Source: Chloroflexota bacterium (lineage in GTDB: Bacteria > Chloroflexota > Anaerolineae > Anaerolineales > Villigracilaceae). From it: a stretch of DNA of 64,000 nt. Both the position numbers and the translations under genes were made by a program. The notes beneath the pieces are model-generated. The model had not been told where the DNA came from. It saw only the letters and a list, made by a program, of their open reading frames with translations, and ran no database searches. Positions 1 through 38,476 of this stretch are shown here, piece after piece (positions within the stretch are counted from its first letter, which is position 1; every line of letters starts with the position of its first letter). The stretch spans positions 2,501 to 66,500 of the forward strand of contig JAJYOU010000010.1 of NCBI GenBank assembly GCA_021795965.1, written 5' to 3'.

Positions 1-293
<293 letters not shown>

Positions 294-368
294 TGTGGTA
301 CGGAGAACTTGATACTTTTTCGAGGTATGAGACGCTATTATGAGTTGTCACTAAAAACGTGAAAACAG

Positions 369-490
369 TCTCTTGGTGATTAGAGCGACGAGGGTACACC
401 CGGTCCCATCCCGAACCCGGAAGTTAAGCTCGTCAGCGCCGATGGTACTTGGAGGGCAGCCTCCCGGGAGAGTAGGTCATCGCCAAGAGA
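369..490 (+). rRNA. rrf: 5S ribosomal RNA
   Basis: About 120 nt whose ends pair (TCTCTTGGTG with CGCCAAGAGA) to form helix I. The conserved 5S core CCCATCCCGAACCCGGAAGT is present, as is GGGAGAGTAGGTC near the 3' end. No tRNA gene sits between 23S and 5S or directly after 5S. A T-rich stretch follows the terminal helix and may end the transcript. Confidence 0.96.
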
Positions 491-23274: not shown

Positions 23275-23440
23275 CTCCACCTCCTTTCTGCGAGAGTGTG
23301 GTATTCCATGGTGAGGGCGGGCGACCTGACTTATCAGAATTTGAAGATTTGGAATCTTGTTCTGAAATACAGTTGCGCAACAGTGCCGGACTTAAACCGG
23401 CTTCGCCATTGAGCCTCCCCATCCGGGGGTAAAGGCACCC
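23275..23440 (-). promoter_or_regulatory. Cobalamin riboswitch
   Basis: On the minus strand the stretch contains GAAGCCGGTTTAAGTCCGGC, then ACTGTTGCGCAACTGTA (the B12-box region, variant of GCCACTG) and, 60 nt later, AAGTCAGGTCGCCCGCC (variant of GAGTCAGGA-ACCTGCC). These are the conserved elements of the cobalamin aptamer in the right order. An intrinsic terminator follows. It should lower expression of btuFCD when cobalamin is plentiful. Confidence 0.85.
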
Positions 23441-23446
23441 TGACCA

Positions 23447-24628
23447 TTATTCAATTGTGGATGTGATTTTATGACTAACCGGGGATATCGTCAATGAATT
23501 AATCAAAATGAGGATAAATATCACAGTTGCGCCGAGTGGCAGAACGAAATTACTTGCGCGCCCGGTAAACAGCAAAATAATGGGCAAAAAATAGAGAATA
23601 ACAACCATCCTGCTCCTGGTTGCAAGCCAAATTATGGGAAGAATCATCAGGACATAATCATAATTGAGTAAATAAGGATCCACCAGTAATGTCACGGTTG
23701 CCAGTAGGCAAATTAATACAAAAGGATCTTTCAAAGCATTTTGAAATTTACTTAATAAGAGCCAAACAATTGCGATCAATAACCCCATTCCAATCAAGAC
23801 TGCTTGCTGGGTATCTCCCTTGCCTGTAAGTGTTTTGATGACGCTAACGGACAGGCTGGCGCACAAACCACAACTCTGGACCCCGGGCAGCGTCCGGTAT
23901 CCATTTAAAGACTTGAGATAAGAAACTGGCCAGCTGGGGTCTGCAAAAAATCCAAAGAGCACCAGCAGGACCAAACCAATCACCGTCCAGCGAAATGCCT
24001 TTCGTGACGAGGATGATTTCTCCCACAAAAGCCAGAGGCTCGCTCCCACGAAGAGAAATCCCCCAATGTGAGGTTTAAAAGTCATCAAAATCAAGCCTGC
24101 TGCCAGCCAAAAGGAATTTTTATTCCGGGCTCCAAAGACAAAAAGAGCAGCACCCAGTAAAACAGGTGCTGCGTATTGCCCCACGATCAAAAGCCCCAGT
24201 GAAGGCAGGTAGAGAACAGCGGCAAGATTCCCGATGATTCGCCTTGGAATGGACCACCCGGGCGTAACAAGCCAGGAAGCCAGGCTGATCATTGCCAGGT
24301 TCATCAGGAACCAGAAATTGGCTGCTGCCTGGATCGGCAGCAATCCCAGAAACAGGGTGGAAAATGCGTACCAGGGTGGGTACGGATAAGGTAAAAATTC
24401 AAAATTATTTGGCACCAGCGTTTTGATGTAAATCAATTGGGCAGGATAATCATAAATCGAGATGCCGTGCAGCAGGGATTTGACCGTGAAATACATGACC
24501 GAGAAATCACTGTAATGAGGCAAACTCAGATAAGGAATAAACGCTATCAGACCGGCAAGAATCAATCCCCCGGATGAAATGGCTATTATTTTGAATATTT
24601 GCTTTAAATCTGTGCGTTGATGCGGCAT
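23447..24628 (-). CDS. GT87-like membrane glycosyltransferase
   Basis: 393 residues with about ten membrane segments. The N-terminal motif SDFSVMYFTVKSLLHGISIYD and the PYPPWYAF segment fit the polyprenol-phosphate-mannose dependent glycosyltransferase family 87 (DUF2029, GT-C fold), where the acidic residue in the first outer loop is catalytic. It would add a sugar to an envelope glycan or lipid outside the membrane. Acceptor and sugar are unknown. It overlaps the end of the next upstream gene by 25 nt, so the two are translationally coupled. Confidence 0.65.
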   Translation of the reverse strand: MPHQRTDLKQIFKIIAISSGGLILAGLIAFIPYLSLPHYSDFSVMYFTVKSLLHGISIYDYPAQLIYIKTLVPNNFEFLPYPYPPWYAFSTLFLGLLPIQAAANFWFLMNLAMISLASWLVTPGWSIPRRIIGNLAAVLYLPSLGLLIVGQYAAPVLLGAALFVFGARNKNSFWLAAGLILMTFKPHIGGFLFVGASLWLLWEKSSSSRKAFRWTVIGLVLLVLFGFFADPSWPVSYLKSLNGYRTLPGVQSCGLCASLSVSVIKTLTGKGDTQQAVLIGMGLLIAIVWLLLSKFQNALKDPFVLICLLATVTLLVDPYLLNYDYVLMILPIIWLATRSRMVVILYFLPIILLFTGRASNFVLPLGATVIFILILINSLTISPVSHKITSTIE

Positions 24629-30653: not shown

Positions 30654-32798
30654 TTATCGGCTCCTCTGATTAACTTGGTCCGCTAAAATGCGCTGGAGCA
30701 TTTCCTCTCTCGGAAATTCTGTGACCAGCTTTTTCAGGAAGGAGATGATTTCCTCCCGTTTGTTTTTCCCGGGAGCATTTACCCAGGATTCCAATTCTAC
30801 CTGGGCTTGATCTACTTGATTCAACTTTAAATTTAGTTTCACCAGGTTTTCGCGAGCGCTCATATCCTCGGGCGAAAGATCGAGGACTTGTTCGTAAACT
30901 TTGATCGCCTGCCGCCAATCGAGGCGTTGTAAATCGATATCTGCAATCCGTCCCAGGATCTGGACACCCAAATCGCGGTTTGTTGAATTTTGCTGCGACG
31001 CACCAAAGGCATCGGTCAGCACTTTTCTTGCAGCTTCCAAATCAGTCTGCTGGTAGTGAATATCCGCAAGTTCGATATATTCGCTGACAGCTTCATCGTT
31101 GTTTCCTTGCGCAAGCAGTTGCTCAATCAATCGATTCCGCGGGGGAAAATCCATTGGGGAAAGCTCGATGACATGCCTCAGAATTTTAATCGCCTGCGCC
31201 GTTTCTCCTCGGGCTATATATGTGTTTGCAACCACCATGAGTTTGGTCACCGCATCGGGGAAATTCTTTTCCTTCACCAAGAGATCAGAAATAAAAATAT
31301 GGAGAGGCAGGTAGTTTGGTGCATATAAAAGAGCTTGAAAAGACTCATCCATGGCAGACCAGAAATATTTTTTTCCCACCAATTCGTTGATATATTTGAT
31401 TGATTCCATGACACGATTAAATTGAGGCTGCAGGATTAATTCCGAGAAAGATGTGGCTTGATATTCTGAATTTACCAACTCATCTTTAATCCGTTGTAAA
31501 TTTTGTCTCCAGTTTTTTTGATTGAGAATTCCATTCACATTTTCGCATAAATTAGCCTGCACTCGCGGGTCGTCTTCCCTGCTGAGCAGCGTCGTCATCG
31601 GTTCGTAGGTTTGCAGGATTTTTTCTGTCTCGTTTTTCTCTGAAACCGAAACATCTGCGATTTTTAATGCTGCCAGGTATTCAATCGCAGCCTGCTTGTT
31701 TTGGTTCATTCTTTGCAGAATTTTTCCATTTAAGATCCGGGTCGCTAGAGCAAAATCCTGATCGTAAACAGATTGTTTCAGATTCTTTAAAGCTTCCTCG
31801 TTGTGACTCGCATTTGATTGGTTCAACCCGAGATCAAAAAACCCAGCCGGGTGATTAAATCCAGACTTGATGGCTTTTTCCATTTCAGAAATGGAGAGCA
31901 AGTAATTTTGCTTGGTTTGTGCGTCCAGGAGATTGGTCAAATGCAGTTGGATTTTTTGAAAATCCGGTTCAAATCCTGGTGAACTCCTGCTGAATCCCCG
32001 GAATTTAATATCAGGTTTGCCCTGCTCAGCGCCCTGATCATCAGCCATTTCGAAAAGTATTTTTGCAAAAAATTCCAGAGCCAATTGCCGGGCTTCTGAA
32101 ATTGGATCAGGGCTTTCCTTGATTTTTATTTTTGATGGTAATTCCTTGGTTACCGCCGTCCGGTGAGGTTCCATGCCTTCTTTTGGGAGCGTCGGTTTTG
32201 GAAATTTCTGACCGGAATAAATTATTTTAATCGCCTGCAATAAATCAGGGTTTGCTGGATCAAGCTCCCGGGCGCGAGTAATCACCTCAAGCGCCTTTTC
32301 TGAATTCCCCCGGTTTTGTAAATTGCCGGCAAGAAGTACATAATCCTTCGCAGCCAGCTGGACCTGCCCAATCTTTTCGCGAATTAATGCCATTCGCGAG
32401 CGCGCCTGTAAATTTTCAGGATCCAGCTCAACCACAATTTGCCAGTTTTCAAGTGCTTTATCAACATCCTTCTGTTTTAGATAAAGCTCAGCTGCAAACA
32501 AAGCTGCCTGAATGGCTTCCTTCGGTTTTCCCAACTTTTGAAAAATAATCGCGATTTTTTCAAAGGCAATTGGATCTTCAGGAGATACTTTGGCTGAATG
32601 GATATATGCCTTAAGAGCATTGTCAAAAAATTGAAGCTGGTACTGGGCGAGAGCGTAGCTGCTGGAGGCAGACGGGTTATCAGGAAATTCATTCAATGCT
32701 TCCTGGTAAGCTTTTAAGGCTTGTTCCCAATTCTGATCCCAGGCTGCGTTATGTCCTTCATTCATTGCCTTGTGAAAAACTTGTCGATTTCCAGCCAT
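30654..32798 (-). CDS. TPR-repeat protein
   Basis: 714 residues, almost wholly helical, with two blocks of tetratricopeptide repeats: about 5-200 (AWDQNWEQALKAYQEALNEFP) and about 490-700 (AIKVYEQVLDLSPEDMSARENL). A less regular segment lies between. No signal or membrane segment is visible, so it is probably a cytoplasmic scaffold; the partner is unknown. The start was placed at the Met at 32798, since upstream codons overlap the polA end and start with TTG. It follows polA on the same strand with 43 nt between. Confidence 0.75.
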   Translation of the reverse strand: MAGNRQVFHKAMNEGHNAAWDQNWEQALKAYQEALNEFPDNPSASSSYALAQYQLQFFDNALKAYIHSAKVSPEDPIAFEKIAIIFQKLGKPKEAIQAALFAAELYLKQKDVDKALENWQIVVELDPENLQARSRMALIREKIGQVQLAAKDYVLLAGNLQNRGNSEKALEVITRARELDPANPDLLQAIKIIYSGQKFPKPTLPKEGMEPHRTAVTKELPSKIKIKESPDPISEARQLALEFFAKILFEMADDQGAEQGKPDIKFRGFSRSSPGFEPDFQKIQLHLTNLLDAQTKQNYLLSISEMEKAIKSGFNHPAGFFDLGLNQSNASHNEEALKNLKQSVYDQDFALATRILNGKILQRMNQNKQAAIEYLAALKIADVSVSEKNETEKILQTYEPMTTLLSREDDPRVQANLCENVNGILNQKNWRQNLQRIKDELVNSEYQATSFSELILQPQFNRVMESIKYINELVGKKYFWSAMDESFQALLYAPNYLPLHIFISDLLVKEKNFPDAVTKLMVVANTYIARGETAQAIKILRHVIELSPMDFPPRNRLIEQLLAQGNNDEAVSEYIELADIHYQQTDLEAARKVLTDAFGASQQNSTNRDLGVQILGRIADIDLQRLDWRQAIKVYEQVLDLSPEDMSARENLVKLNLKLNQVDQAQVELESWVNAPGKNKREEIISFLKKLVTEFPREEMLQRILADQVNQRSR

Positions 32799-32841
32799 AT
32801 TAATTCGATTCTTCCATCTGTCAGTCAAAACCTGACAATAT

Positions 32842-35667
32842 TCAATCAACTACCTGCATCGAGCCCCAGCTTTTTCCAGATCGAGCTTCGGTCAGCAAGG
32901 GGATTTTTAATTGAAAAGCCGATTCCATCACGTTTTTTACGAGTTTCACAGTTTTGTTCAATTCAACCTGTGGACATTCGAGCACGATCTCATCATGGAC
33001 CTGCAGGAGCATCATTCCTTTTAAGCCGGCGTTTTTTAAAGCGGGAGGGATTTGCAGCATGGCTATTTTCATAATGTCCGCTGCGGTTCCCTGGATCGGG
33101 GCATTGATCGCTTCCCTTTCCTCGCGATTGCGTAACTGGGGGTTCATCTGTCCTTTTAATGCCGGAAAATAGCGCCTTCTTCCCAGCAAAGTGGTTACAT
33201 AACCCTGTTGTGTTGCCAATTTTCGAATGTTATCCAGGTAAAACTTGACGCCGGGAAATCTGGCGAAATAGGTTTTTACAAAATTTTCCGCTTCACCCAG
33301 GGTCAGATCAGTGGTGCGCGCCAGACCAAAGGCAGACATCCCGTAAATCAGACCAAAGTTGATCGCTTTGGCGTGACGGCGCTGCTCTTTCGTGACCTCG
33401 GTGAGGGGGATATTGTAAATTGCCGCGGCTGTGGTGGCGTGAATATCCTGCCCGGAACGGAATGCCTGCAGCATGGCTTCATCCTCAGCCATATGGGCGA
33501 CGATTCGAAGTTCCACCTGCGAATAATCGACCGAAAGGAGCACATTGCCTTCATCAGCAATGAAACCATTTCGAACTCTTCGACCAGTCTCGGTCCGGAT
33601 CGGTATATTCTGGAGATTGGGGTTGTTGGATGACAACCTCCCGGTGACGGCTCCTGTCTGACTGTAGGATGTGTGGACGCGACCGGTTTTTGGATCCACT
33701 GCTGCCGGCAGGGAATCGACGTAAGTGGATTTTAGCTTCGAGAGTTCGCGGTGTTCCAAAATCAGGTCAACCAGCGAATGTTGTCCTCTCAATTCTTCGA
33801 GAACATCCGCTGAAGTGGAATAATGACCACTCGAAGTTTTTTTCCCCCGCATGGGTGGAATTAATTTTAATTGGTTGAACAGGATCGCAGAAAGTTGCTG
33901 GGTGGAATTGATGTTGAAAGGATGTCCGACTTGTTCGTAGATTTGATCTACCAGTTTTGCCAGGTTCGAGGTTAATTCTTTCGAAAAATCATGGAAGAAT
34001 TCCAGGTCAAGGCGCACTCCCAGGAATTCCATTTCTGCGAGCACACTCACCAGGGGCATTTCGATTTCATACATCAAATTATCAAGACCGTCTCGTGCCA
34101 GTTCGGATTGTAATTGCGGCATCAATCTGATGCAAGTTTCAGCATCTGCCGCCGCGTAGGGAGCAGCCAGTTCCACCGGCACTTCAGCCATTGATATTTG
34201 TTTTTTCCCGCTGCCGATTAACTCCTCGATATGGGTCATCTCGAGACCCAAGCGCACAAAAGCGAGGTTTTTTAGACCAAGATTACGTGAATTGGGGTCA
34301 ACCAGCCATTCGGCGATCATTGTGTCAAAAGATAAAGGTGCCACCCTTAAACCCTGCCTGGCAAGCATCAAATAATCGTATTTAATGTTATGTCCAATTT
34401 TTTGGATGGATGGATTGGTGAGAGGTTCTTTTAATGCTTCAAGCACTCGCTCTTTTTTCAGGTTTTGTCCGTGATAATGACCAACCGGGATATACCATGC
34501 CCCTCCGGGTTGGGTTGCCAGGGAAATCCCAACCAGTTCAGCCTGCATTTCCTCCGTGGAAGTGGTTTCAGTATCGAAGGAAATTAATTTTGCCTGGTTA
34601 AGTTCCTTTACGAGGGTTTCCAATTTTTCGGGAGTATCAACAATTTCGGTATTTAGATTGGAAGGAGATTGAAGAGAAATTGCAGATTTCTGGGTTGTTT
34701 TCTCCGGCTCCTCGAACATGGAAATCTGTCCCTGTTTGCGTGGCGCAGCCGGGGTTTTCGCTGAAAATGGAGAGATGGCTTCATGAACCGCGGCTATTTT
34801 TGGAATAAGCGTGCGGAATTCCAGCTCGCGAAATAATTTCTCCACGGCTTCGATCTCAAAATCATGCGATTTGGCTCGCTCGAGGTCGAGTTTTATCGGC
34901 AAATCAGTCCGAATTTGAGCAAGGTTCTGGCTCAGGTATGCCATCTCGCGATTTTCTTCCAGCTTGAGGCGCAGCTTGGCAGGTAAATTCTCGAGATGGG
35001 CATAAATATCATCCAGCGATGTATAAGTCTCAAACAGTGACTGTGCGGTTTTCTCTCCGACACCTTTCACGCCAGGGATATTATCTGAAGTATCCCCAAC
35101 AAGTGCTTTGTAATCCACCACCAGCCTGGCAGGTACACCAAATTTGGATCTGACATCATCATCAGTGATGTAATCTTTTGCATCTGCCAGCTTGCCGCCT
35201 TCGGGTAAATTGACAAAAATATGATCACCCACCAGCTGCAGCAAATCCCGGTCTCCAGTCACAATTTTTACTCCCAATCCCTCGCCTGCCATCTGCTTTG
35301 CGATGGTGCCCAGGATGTCATCCGCTTCGAAACCTTCCATTTCAAGGCGCGGAATATTGAACGCATCCACCAACTGCCGGATTCTCTCAATTTGCGGTCG
35401 CAAATCATCGGGCATTTTGGCTCGGGTGGCTTTATATTCCGGGTAAAGCTTATCCCGGAATGTTTTTCCAGTATCGAATGCCACAGCGATGTAATCAGGA
35501 CGATCGTTTTCGAGTAACCGCATGATTACGGTGGCGAAACCAAAAATTCCAGCGGTTGGTTCTCCACTCGAGGTCTGCCAGCGTGAGTTGGAGGAACCGC
35601 TGGTCAGGGCAAAAAAGGTCCTGTATGCCAGTGCATGACCATCGATTAGATAAAGTTTTTGCGGCAT
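32842..35667 (-). CDS. polA: DNA polymerase I
   Basis: 941 residues with all three domains. The 5'-3' exonuclease/flap domain (1-~300) opens LYLIDGHALAYRTFFAL. The 3'-5' exonuclease (~355-545) keeps the acidic residues in SFDTETTS, NIKYDYL and AAADAETC, so proofreading is probably functional. The family A polymerase domain (~560-941) has DYSQVELRIVAHMAED, the O-helix RRHAKAINFGLIYGMSAFGL (part) and LLQVHDEIVLE. It acts in Okazaki fragment processing and repair. Transcribed away from the divergent left neighbours and followed by the TPR gene. Confidence 0.95.
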   Translation of the reverse strand: MPQKLYLIDGHALAYRTFFALTSGSSNSRWQTSSGEPTAGIFGFATVIMRLLENDRPDYIAVAFDTGKTFRDKLYPEYKATRAKMPDDLRPQIERIRQLVDAFNIPRLEMEGFEADDILGTIAKQMAGEGLGVKIVTGDRDLLQLVGDHIFVNLPEGGKLADAKDYITDDDVRSKFGVPARLVVDYKALVGDTSDNIPGVKGVGEKTAQSLFETYTSLDDIYAHLENLPAKLRLKLEENREMAYLSQNLAQIRTDLPIKLDLERAKSHDFEIEAVEKLFRELEFRTLIPKIAAVHEAISPFSAKTPAAPRKQGQISMFEEPEKTTQKSAISLQSPSNLNTEIVDTPEKLETLVKELNQAKLISFDTETTSTEEMQAELVGISLATQPGGAWYIPVGHYHGQNLKKERVLEALKEPLTNPSIQKIGHNIKYDYLMLARQGLRVAPLSFDTMIAEWLVDPNSRNLGLKNLAFVRLGLEMTHIEELIGSGKKQISMAEVPVELAAPYAAADAETCIRLMPQLQSELARDGLDNLMYEIEMPLVSVLAEMEFLGVRLDLEFFHDFSKELTSNLAKLVDQIYEQVGHPFNINSTQQLSAILFNQLKLIPPMRGKKTSSGHYSTSADVLEELRGQHSLVDLILEHRELSKLKSTYVDSLPAAVDPKTGRVHTSYSQTGAVTGRLSSNNPNLQNIPIRTETGRRVRNGFIADEGNVLLSVDYSQVELRIVAHMAEDEAMLQAFRSGQDIHATTAAAIYNIPLTEVTKEQRRHAKAINFGLIYGMSAFGLARTTDLTLGEAENFVKTYFARFPGVKFYLDNIRKLATQQGYVTTLLGRRRYFPALKGQMNPQLRNREEREAINAPIQGTAADIMKIAMLQIPPALKNAGLKGMMLLQVHDEIVLECPQVELNKTVKLVKNVMESAFQLKIPLLTEARSGKSWGSMQVVD

Positions 35668-35854
35668 GTTCGTAATTTACCTTGTTGAAGGAAGTTAAAA
35701 ATTAGGATGATCAGGGAAGTCTGTTCCTGATTAATTTAAAGTGAGTGTTGTTTTCTTAAGTCATTCACAGCGAAGGTGTTTAAGACCGGCTGCCGAAAAA
35801 GCCTGCCAGGTGGATCGGGTTCAGATGATTATTATTTTAAACCAATTGCTTACT

Positions 35855-37579
35855 TCACATTCTCAAACCCTGGCGCACTCGAGTCTGTTTGATAAAGTCT
35901 TTAATAAGTTTTTGGGGATGCGGTTGTGATCCACCCTGAACGATAAAACCGCGTGCCCAAAATTCGCCGGATGGGTTGTCAATCATGAAGCGTGGAAATT
36001 CATTAAACATGCGTTCTGACGTGTGCTTGCGAATGGTGTTGATGACATAACCCGCGGCGGTGTTGACCGGAACCCTTGTGATCCATTGCAGATAATCAGG
36101 TCGGATGGCGAGATATTCCAAGCGCCAGCCGTAAGCAACGCTGATTTGTTGGACCCATTCATTCAAATGCGTGGATACATCACCGATAAGGTGATGATGT
36201 TCAAAGCGGGGAATCAACAGGCAGGCATAGGCAAGATTAATCGAAAATACCGAGGGCGACTCGATCAGGATTCTGTGGGCAGAATCGGGAGTGTTCCCTG
36301 AAACAAAATGAACCCGTGTTTCAATCACAGATTGCGGGTCGTTATTAATTTCGCTTTTTCGGGTGGATGCCAGATCCTGGTCTGGTTTCTGGTTTGTTTT
36401 TTCATACCCGTTTTTATTTTTGAGAGAAGGTTCTCCAGAGTTTTGGTTGCCTGGAGTGCTTGCTTTTTGCTGCCCGAACCCTGGTTGAATCTCAGAGTTT
36501 GTATCTGCCTGGGTCTGAATATCTGGAATCGACTTTAAATATTCCTCAGGAGCGCGGTTGAATCGCGTGCTGTCAATACGTTCAATTTCTGGCTTGGAAC
36601 CCGGGAAATTTACGATTTCAGTTTTCGCCAGAGGTGGGGTAGGATTTTTGCTTGGGATTGGCAGCGGAATTTCACCTAAAAGATCCGCTATTGGTGGAAA
36701 ATCGGGAAATTCCGTGTTATCAGCGGGTTCATTCTCTGGTTCGGCATGCGAAAAATTGGATTTTTGAGGCAAATCCACCTGCACCATATCGTTTTTGTAT
36801 AAATCTTTCACCAATTTTCCGGTTTGCAGCCGGATCGTGCTGAAAGGTGTTTCCGCATCAAACACGAGTGCCAGGCTCATATCTCCAGAAAGTTTGCGGG
36901 CGTATAACATGTGCTGCGCCCCGGTTGCTTTCAGCCTGACAAACCTGAGCAAATCGCTCTCTTCTTCATGATTCCAGGTTTGCTCGATGGAATCGGTCAA
37001 TTCCTGGGCTGCCTCTCGCGAGAGTTGACCAGCGTACGCCCATAGTTCGTTTTTACGAATGATGAATGCAGCCTGGGCTGATGATTCCAGGGTGATTTGT
37101 GTGAGCTGTTGGGCTGCTTTGCTGACATCTTTCAGCCATATTAATTTTGGACTTTCATTCTCATCCGGATGATTGGAAATTGCCTGTGAAGCGGGAGTTC
37201 CGAAGCTTGTTTGATCTCGATTCGAATTTACCAGTTTCTGAAGCAGGATGCTCAGATCTTTCATCGAAATCGGTTTGATTAAAGTAGCCGCAGGAGTGAG
37301 CGAAGCGGAATCCACATCCTGTCCTGTATGAATCACGATAATAAATTGAATCTCAGGTTTGATCTGCCGAAGGGCGTAACCTATATCCAGAACCGAGAGG
37401 GCAACATCTTCCAACTCAGCATCCAGCATCACCAATCGACAGTCATTTTCATGGACAAAACGAATCGCCCCCGAAAAATCTTTGGTTACAAAAATATTAA
37501 ACTCTGAATCCCCCAGTTCTTTCAGAATTGAGGTGCCAAATTCAGCCTGGGGACTGATCACGAGCAGTGCAGTCTTCAT
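35855..37579 (-). CDS. Receiver - roadblock-like - inactive IS200/IS605 transposase-like fusion protein
   Basis: 574 residues. Residues 1-118 form a response-regulator receiver domain with phospho-acceptor Asp53 (VMLDAEL) and Lys102 (LIKP). Residues ~150-270 resemble a roadblock/LC7 module (QITLESSAQAAFIIRKNELW). A disordered Pro/Asn/Gln-rich linker spans ~272-425. Residues ~440-570 align along their length with the IS200-type Y1 transposase (HVW-like strand, KGKSS-like IRKHTSERMF, GEFWARGFIVQGG, LIKDFIKQ). The HUH pair is replaced (Tyr496, Gln498), and the catalytic Tyr is Phe562, so it cannot cleave DNA by the known mechanism. No IS ends or accessory tnpB are seen. Probably a domesticated DNA- or RNA-hairpin-binding module under phosphorylation control. 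Confidence 0.7.
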   Translation of the reverse strand: MKTALLVISPQAEFGTSILKELGDSEFNIFVTKDFSGAIRFVHENDCRLVMLDAELEDVALSVLDIGYALRQIKPEIQFIIVIHTGQDVDSASLTPAATLIKPISMKDLSILLQKLVNSNRDQTSFGTPASQAISNHPDENESPKLIWLKDVSKAAQQLTQITLESSAQAAFIIRKNELWAYAGQLSREAAQELTDSIEQTWNHEEESDLLRFVRLKATGAQHMLYARKLSGDMSLALVFDAETPFSTIRLQTGKLVKDLYKNDMVQVDLPQKSNFSHAEPENEPADNTEFPDFPPIADLLGEIPLPIPSKNPTPPLAKTEIVNFPGSKPEIERIDSTRFNRAPEEYLKSIPDIQTQADTNSEIQPGFGQQKASTPGNQNSGEPSLKNKNGYEKTNQKPDQDLASTRKSEINNDPQSVIETRVHFVSGNTPDSAHRILIESPSVFSINLAYACLLIPRFEHHHLIGDVSTHLNEWVQQISVAYGWRLEYLAIRPDYLQWITRVPVNTAAGYVINTIRKHTSERMFNEFPRFMIDNPSGEFWARGFIVQGGSQPHPQKLIKDFIKQTRVRQGLRM

Positions 37580-37811
37580 ACAAAAAGAAGTTTATCACGG
37601 TGAAAGACCTCGTACAAGTAAAAATAACCCAATCCTGTAATTTGTATCCCAATTGCAACCAAACTCTCTTGAGTGAATTTCTTCATGTTTTGAGTTGATT
37701 TTAACCGTGCGCCAAAACCTGGATTCCAAACCTTTTCAGATCAAACGGATTAAATCCTGATGTCATGATATTATTTTTGATATCGACTCGATTTGGAAAG
37801 GACCGCTCTTT

Positions 37812-38177
37812 ATGTATGAAAATCACAAGGACCCTTTGCTGCCTTTGCACGATTTCATAATTCGGCTGCTCAATCATGGTCTAGTAGCCATCGGACTGCT
37901 TGTATTTTCCCTGGGAATCGGCGTTCTTGGATATCATATTTTGGAGAATCTTCCATGGGTCGATTCGCTTTTGAATGCTTCGATGATATTGGGTGGAATG
38001 GGACCGGTCAATCAATTGCAGACGGTTGCCGGGAAAGTTTTTGCTTCCATTTATGCCATTTATTCAGGGATGATATTTTTAATTATTGCCGGTGTAATGT
38101 TGGCACCAGTCTTTCACCGGGTTTTACATCATTTTCATTATGATCTTGCTGACGAAACTGAAAAAGCCAGTAATTAA
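37812..38177 (+). CDS. Conserved small two-helix membrane protein
   Basis: 121 residues with two membrane segments (about 20-45 and 75-100). The segment GVLGYHILENLPWVDSLLNASMILGGMGPVNQLQTVAGKVFAS (key words GYHILE, LNASMILGGMGP) recalls a widespread family of small uncharacterised membrane proteins with ion-channel-like spacing of the two helices. A selectivity filter is not evident. AAAGGA lies upstream (about 37797-37803) of the ATG. Soluble downstream genes at 38300 and 38473 are on the same strand. Confidence 0.6.
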   Translation: MYENHKDPLLPLHDFIIRLLNHGLVAIGLLVFSLGIGVLGYHILENLPWVDSLLNASMILGGMGPVNQLQTVAGKVFASIYAIYSGMIFLIIAGVMLAPVFHRVLHHFHYDLADETEKASN

Positions 38178-38299
38178 AAGTGGATTGTTGGTGCTGGACT
38201 TTCGATATTTCCTTCCACTTCAAGATTGGTGAAAATAGTTCGGATAAGCTGGATGGCGCAGCAGGTTCTTCCCATTTGCTCTGATTATTATGTGTTTTT

Positions 38300-38476
38300 A
38301 TGATCCCCGTTGAAAAACATCTTTTCCTTGCGGATATTCAAGCCGCAAAAGAAAAAGCAGATCAGGCGTCAAACGTCCCCAAACTCATGGTGATTGTTTT
38401 AAGTTCTTTAAAAAAGTATACTGAGAATGGAGTGAAAATCGCTGGGGTGGGTTGCGATCACAAGGAGCAAATATGA
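38300..38476 (+). CDS. Possible 58-aa soluble protein
   Basis: An open frame of 58 codons (MIPVEKHLFLADIQAAK...VGCDHKEQI) ends in TGA overlapping the ATG of the next gene, the ATGA arrangement typical of translational coupling. Composition is that of a normal small helical protein. No Shine-Dalgarno precedes its ATG, which keeps confidence low. It fills most of an otherwise empty 295-bp gap. Confidence 0.35.
   Translation: MIPVEKHLFLADIQAAKEKADQASNVPKLMVIVLSSLKKYTENGVKIAGVGCDHKEQI

Follow-up and report, generated by a model that had tools for sequence, protein, structure and literature searches.

A catalytically dead IS200/IS605-type transposase domain in a receiver-roadblock protein encoded next to polA in Anaerolineae

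TnpA transposases of the IS200/IS605 type act as dimers, and they bind single-stranded or hairpin DNA on the lagging-strand template. A TnpA-like domain is encountered at the C-terminus of a much longer protein encoded in assembly GCA_021795965.1 (Chloroflexota; Anaerolineae; Villigracilaceae), within a 64,000-nucleotide stretch of contig JAJYOU010000010.1 that was analysed as a whole and is referred to here as the window. This raises the question whether the gene is an insertion sequence copy that fused with a host gene by chance or carries a transposase domain that was recruited by the host, and, in the latter case, what the domain would do. The initial annotation, made from the letters of the window without database searches, proposed a dead transposase that serves as a phosphorylation-controlled module for nucleic-acid binding or dimerisation.

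Domesticated Y1 transposases are known as RAYTs or TnpA-REP, in which catalysis is kept (PMC8266576), and a survey of such proteins set aside PF01797 members without HUH or Y as probably non-functional (PMC6006769). No prior description of a receiver-roadblock-dead Y1 fusion was found in the open-access papers searched; PMC8756737 goes no further than listing a hypothetical Y1 Tnp protein near nirS.

Domain architecture and catalytic residues

The gene, its domains and motifs, and its conserved neighbours are listed in Table 1. An AlphaFold2 model of the 574-residue protein, built with 38 homologues, contains three confident domains and a disordered linker, and it displays what had been proposed for the larger part of the chain, i.e., a receiver fold with Asp53 and Lys102, a roadblock-like middle part, and a long disordered linker. 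The roadblock domain is folded in the order helix-strand-strand-helix-three strands-helix and matches MglB in Foldseek (6izw_B and 6hjm_H, E about 1e-6); at the profile level an NCBIfam MglB trace was obtained (E 0.08), and this part of the window protein did not reach the Pfam Robl_LC7 threshold. A roadblock domain is present in all Y1-fused proteins checked.

Table 1. Positions in the window of the fusion gene, its parts and its conserved neighbours.
Feature	Position	Strand	Basis
Receiver - roadblock - disordered linker - dead Y1 (TnpA-like) gene	35855..37579	minus	ORF, 574 aa, ATG start
Degenerate receiver (REC), residues 1-124	37208..37579	minus	AF2 pLDDT >92; VIA-align Z 17.8 to Spo0F; column counts
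Roadblock/LC7-type domain, residues 147-265	36785..37141	minus	AF2; Foldseek to MglB
Disordered, fast-evolving linker, residues 266-446 (about)	36242..36784	minus	pLDDT mostly <50; median dN/dS 0.204
Dead Y1/TnpA-like domain, residues 447-572	35864..36241	minus	PF01797 E 1.1e-9; Foldseek; VIA-align
Former HUH motif, Tyr496-Leu497-Gln498	36086..36094	minus	Family alignment; 126 distinct fused domains
Former Y---Q motif, Phe562 (nucleophile position) to Thr566 (third metal ligand position)	35882..35896	minus	Alignment columns
polA (DNA polymerase I), conserved neighbour	32842..35667	minus	Directly downstream, 187-nt gap
TPR-repeat protein, overlaps polA end	30654..32849	minus	Pfam TPR; synteny

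The proposed resemblance of the C-terminal ~130 residues to Y1 transposases of the IS200 type was upheld by Pfam (Y1_Tnp, residues 448-565, 38.9 bits against a cut-off of 23), by NCBIfam (IS200 transposase NF033573, E 2.8e-10), and by sequence-level matches to the solved TnpA structures 2ec2, 2f4f, 2fyx, and 2xm3. The NF033573 score of 40.5 bits lies under the equivalog cut-off of 55, as expected of a diverged member. Structure prediction recovered the TnpA fold as well: in the model, where the domain spans residues 447-569, it matches 2ec2 in Foldseek (E 2.6e-10) and IS200/IS605 transposases in VIA-align (Z 16.4, rmsd 1.9, 109 residues), and since the whole-protein VIA-align list is filled by receiver matches, the missing of other fold families there means little. 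The corresponding domain of family f20, modelled alone (pLDDT 93), has its best match in 2fyx (Z 14.2, rmsd 2.9 over 121 residues) besides a match to 2ec2 (E 3.3e-8), and reaches Z 7.6 with the RAYT 4er8, against 12-14 for IS200 TnpA. Within the Y1 domain, conservation across all branches is highest in the strand region that contains the Trp. A PHROGs search of the protein returned a generic transposase family only, and a defence system was discarded as a candidate, PADLOC having given no match.

The residues at the former active site were subsequently compared among relatives. Tyr496 and Gln498 had been placed on the positions of the two HUH histidines, and the family alignment agrees, with Tyr in 39 of 39 sequences at the first position and Gln in 38 of 39 at the second. 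The third metal ligand, which in class 1 TnpA is a Gln at +4 from the nucleophilic Tyr (PMC6006769), is replaced by Thr566 in the window protein and by Thr, Ile or another residue in its relatives. Among the homologues 126 distinct fused domains were compared, none of which has both HUH histidines; the first of these positions is occupied by Tyr, Phe or Trp in most families, and one His is kept in some members of families f35, f55, and f60. Phe562, which had been read as the lost nucleophile, does occupy that position in the window protein, but this replacement is not shared by the whole family: Tyr and Phe occur in 21 and 18 sequences of the family alignment, and the 126 distinct domains have 69 Tyr, 54 Phe, and 3 Leu. 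Judged from these alignments, the loss of the metal site is a family-wide feature and Phe562 is a lineage detail. In the short standalone TnpA of the class the two histidines, the Tyr, and the Gln are intact almost without exception, and twelve proteins have all four. The exceptions are an Arg for the Gln (L029), a truncated protein (L092), and an Arg at the second His (L165:2001-2403, minus strand); the last of these retains the Tyr and the Gln and is perhaps a recently dead IS copy.

Distribution, mobility and selection

With the domain alignment as query 157 relatives were detected, and with full-length-protein patterns, which lie in variable parts, none; the named genomes that contain relatives belong to uncultured Anaerolineae/Anaerolineales. 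The gene is present in 145 of the 152 genomes of the window's family (f1), including 86 of the 88 good genomes, and long fused proteins are found in ten sampled families of the Anaerolineae (f1, f20, f34, f35, f46, f48, f53, f55, f59, and f60). A phylum-wide search for fused forms outside the class returned only TnpA-size proteins and a few longer read-through frames, and the single longer frame that was checked (533 aa, genome G562, L273) is an HUH-intact TnpA. Receiver-roadblock proteins without a Y1 domain occur in f10, f14, f16, f41, f45, and f50. Moreover, standalone Y1 proteins of 144-231 aa without intact HUH occur in genomes of the window's family (L090, L150-L158) as a sister group to the fused domain, and genome G315 contains four standalone HUH-less Y1 proteins; they are candidates for unfused partners of the fusion protein.

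A tree of 65 domains, which is based on 127 columns only and in which many forks are open, separates 51 dead domains from 14 TnpA of the class with a support of 98/98, and its groups track the host families. The window's branch and the f20 branch were joined in a profile comparison (E 1.6e-15). A single capture followed by vertical inheritance is the simplest reading of these data, and convergent loss could also draw the dead domains together.

Selection on the parts of the protein was estimated by pairwise Nei-Gojobori analysis; many of the pairs have branches in common, and in many the synonymous sites approach saturation. The median dN/dS was 0.046 for the Y1 domain and 0.050 for the roadblock domain, compared with 0.112 in the receiver and 0.204 in the linker. 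By this estimate the dead Y1 domain is under strong purifying selection and is constrained like the best-kept part of the protein.

These data bear directly on the reading of the gene as an IS copy, either inactivated recently or mobile to this day, that chanced to fuse with a host gene. This reading has in its favour that the domain has the sequence and the fold of an IS200 transposase, but it is refuted by the comparative data, i.e., by the near-universal occurrence as a single copy, the conserved locus, and the low dN/dS of the domain, and its probability is practically nil. In agreement with this, neither a second Y1_Tnp match nor a second DNA copy was found in the window's own genome (62% complete), and no tnpB, IS ends or IS context was seen at the locus. 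The region 35600-38300 was searched for repeats of at least 10 nt beside the gene: no inverted repeat lies within 35600-37800, a single AT-rich pair occurs at 38077-38179, and no such repeat that could represent a REP palindrome stands beside the gene. Fused homologues combining intact HUH/Tyr residues with flanking IS ends were not encountered. The fused gene displays the properties of a host gene, namely single copy, vertical inheritance, purifying selection, and a conserved locus, and fold, residue losses, copy number, locus, and selection give strong support to the core of the initial annotation, the recruitment of an IS200-type transposase domain that is catalytically dead.

Comparison of the homologues shows capture, loss, and retention. 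The TnpA domain was added, apparently a single time and in an ancestor within the Anaerolineae, to the end of a receiver-roadblock protein whose gene lies upstream of polA; the metal site and the greater part of the basic, DNA-binding surface disappeared, and strong purifying selection has preserved the domain since. The fused domain resembles IS200/IS605 TnpA (2ec2, 2f4f, 2xm3, 2a6m) in whole-domain fold, motif order, conserved Trp, and sequence, but differs from it in the loss of all three metal ligands, a nucleophile position with either Tyr or Phe, a reduced basic surface, the fusion to receiver and roadblock, and its single copy at a fixed locus without visible IS ends or tnpB. TnpA-REP/RAYT proteins (PMC8266576; 4er8) are likewise Y1 transposases kept as host genes with housekeeping-like behaviour; unlike the fused domain, which is without catalysis, they have HUH and Tyr intact and act in the processing of REP hairpins, and the RAYT catalytic set of HUH and Y---N(P), as defined in PMC6006769, is absent from the fused domain.

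Receiver, roadblock and the role of the dead domain

Asp53 (37421-37423) is kept in 38 of 38 family members and Lys102 (37274-37276) in 35 of 38, which together with the clear receiver fold could suggest a response regulator in which phosphorylation of Asp53 by a histidine kinase controls whether the Y1 output domain dimerises or binds. However, the classical residue set (acidic pair, Asp, Thr/Ser, Lys) is incomplete: the acidic pair of the Mg2+ site is replaced by Ser9/Pro10 in the window protein and by Ser/Thr9 and Pro10 throughout its family, the Thr/Ser switch position is not conserved, and Pfam Response_reg gives 12.5 bits only. In other families the Asp (f35, f48) or, mostly, the Lys (f20) is lost while roadblock and Y1 are kept. 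Furthermore, constraint on the receiver is weaker than on either roadblock or Y1, and no histidine kinase was identified among the annotated neighbours. Of the phosphorylation control that had been proposed, the conservation of Asp53 and Lys102 in the window's family stands, but the missing acidic pair and the losses elsewhere make a classical phospho-switch unlikely as a general mechanism, and the response-regulator reading is, overall, highly improbable. As the acidic pair is missing, the receiver would rather act as a pseudo-receiver interaction domain.

The net charge of the domain, a crude measure of nucleic-acid binding, ranges from +5 to +9 in TnpA of the class, whereas the fused domains have a median of +2 in f1, -7 in f20, -5 in f48, -11.5 in f46, -9 in f59, and -2 in f35; in the window's family the charge of about +2 corresponds to a pI of 8.8. 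Basic positions fixed in TnpA are lost, an Arg of all 14 TnpA being replaced by Ser/Thr and an Arg present in 93% of them by Pro or Asp. The dead domain might nevertheless still bind single-stranded or hairpin DNA and deliver the receiver-roadblock adaptor, and perhaps PolA with it, to intermediates of replication or repair, as a reader of DNA structure and not a nuclease. The polA linkage (see below) and the retention of the whole TnpA fold would fit such a role, and in the window's family, where arginines 458, 486, 517, and 567 are invariant or nearly so, the remaining charge is such that some nucleic-acid binding may occur; the aromatic residue at the first His position of most members could stack on a base. 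Besides the loss of the basic positions conserved in true TnpA, it speaks against this role that orthologous domains with the same architecture, in f20 even at the same locus, have charges of -7 to -11.5, which a conserved DNA-binding job would hardly survive. Because of this charge reversal in orthologues at the same locus, conserved nucleic-acid binding by the fused domains is unlikely, and a reader of DNA structure is on balance rather doubtful. With respect to the earlier alternative of nucleic-acid binding or dimerisation, the drop from +7 in TnpA to +2 in the window and to -7 or -11.5 in other families makes the evidence lean to dimerisation or protein interaction.

Within an adaptor, the fused domain now most likely serves for dimerisation or protein docking without any catalysis, a role suggested by the dimeric action of TnpA, from which dimerisation would be carried over, and by the superior conservation of the Trp-containing strand region. 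The roadblock domain would bind an MglA-type small GTPase or the product of a neighbouring gene, and the long linker could let the two halves of the protein reach different partners. Arf-like small GTPase ORFs of about 180-200 aa are encoded in most of the 14 genomes checked, including the window's own, where an Arf/MglA-like ORF of 184 aa (G000:C6:55305-55799, plus strand) is a possible roadblock partner.

TldR proteins are nuclease-dead derivatives of TnpB. As RNA-guided transcription factors (PMC13418256) they also represent IS200/IS605 proteins recruited by the host after loss of the nuclease, but they still use guide RNA and DNA binding, whereas the fused domain derives from TnpA and probably does not bind DNA. 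The MglB-type roadblock GAPs and RomR-like receiver regulators of Myxococcus (PMC3441718, PMC10329633) share the roadblock and receiver folds and act in polarity-type signalling; in contrast to these, the fusion protein combines both folds in one chain with a dead transposase, has no MglA gene beside it, and contains a roadblock domain beyond the reach of the Pfam model.

The polA linkage and its meaning

Of the 108 distinct loci for which 1.5 kb or more of downstream sequence is available, 86 are followed within 1 kb by polA in the same orientation, at a median gap of about 108 nt. This linkage was seen in f1, f20, f48, f53, and one f35 locus, with gaps down to 3 nt. The link is not obligatory, since polA is not found within 1 kb at the other 22 loci, which include most of f35 and all of f46. 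The neighbours in the window other than polA are mostly not common to the polA-linked families; a TPR protein follows polA in most f1 genomes, and a weakly similar one lies near polA in two f20/f48 loci. The link can also exist without the transposase part, as in one f10 genome, where a receiver-roadblock protein lacking Y1 is encoded directly before polA (L089:6183-6989, minus strand). Among the Y1-less genes of f10, f14, f16, f41, f45, and f50 this is the only one beside polA, and the Y1 domain may have been either gained or lost with respect to f10; some distant receiver-roadblock proteins without Y1 do not adjoin polA. Elsewhere in the window, the end of a 23S rRNA gene and a 5S rRNA gene (1-488, plus strand) and a cobalamin riboswitch (23299-23457, minus strand; Rfam RF00174, 49 bits) were detected.

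Gene order suggests that the adaptor might serve PolA-dependent DNA synthesis or repair. It is also quite conceivable, if short of probable, that the adjacency is inherited gene order without functional meaning and that the protein works elsewhere, e.g., in cell polarity with MglA-type GTPases: roadblock domains such as MglB are known partners of these GTPases, small GTPase ORFs are encoded in the genomes, and several loci are without polA. This is countered by the persistence of polA beside the gene across families that have almost no other window neighbour in common, by gaps as short as 3 nt, and by its position next to the Y1-less protein in one f10 genome. More speculatively, and in our judgement unlikely, the class-wide adaptor could assist or regulate DNA polymerase I as a hitherto unrecognised factor; its TnpA domain, which formerly seized single-stranded DNA of the lagging strand, would have turned into a protein-docking module coupling PolA to roadblock/GTPase signalling. 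Taken as a whole, the protein is probably best explained as a roadblock scaffold, linked to polA, in which a domesticated, dead transposase has been kept for dimerisation or protein docking and not for catalysis.

Among host genes of Y1 transposase origin, the known examples are mainly RAYTs, in which the chemistry is preserved, whereas all metal ligands, much of the charge, and the mobility are gone here. The fused gene is nearly universal in a bacterial family, and its transposase domain is under a constraint as strong as that of its roadblock partner. Dropping PF01797 proteins without HUH or Y from catalogues, as was done in PMC6006769, hides such cases, and automatic annotation will label the gene a transposase. 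Finally, the linkage with polA provides a starting point from which a role in replication or repair could be tested directly in this major, uncultured lineage.
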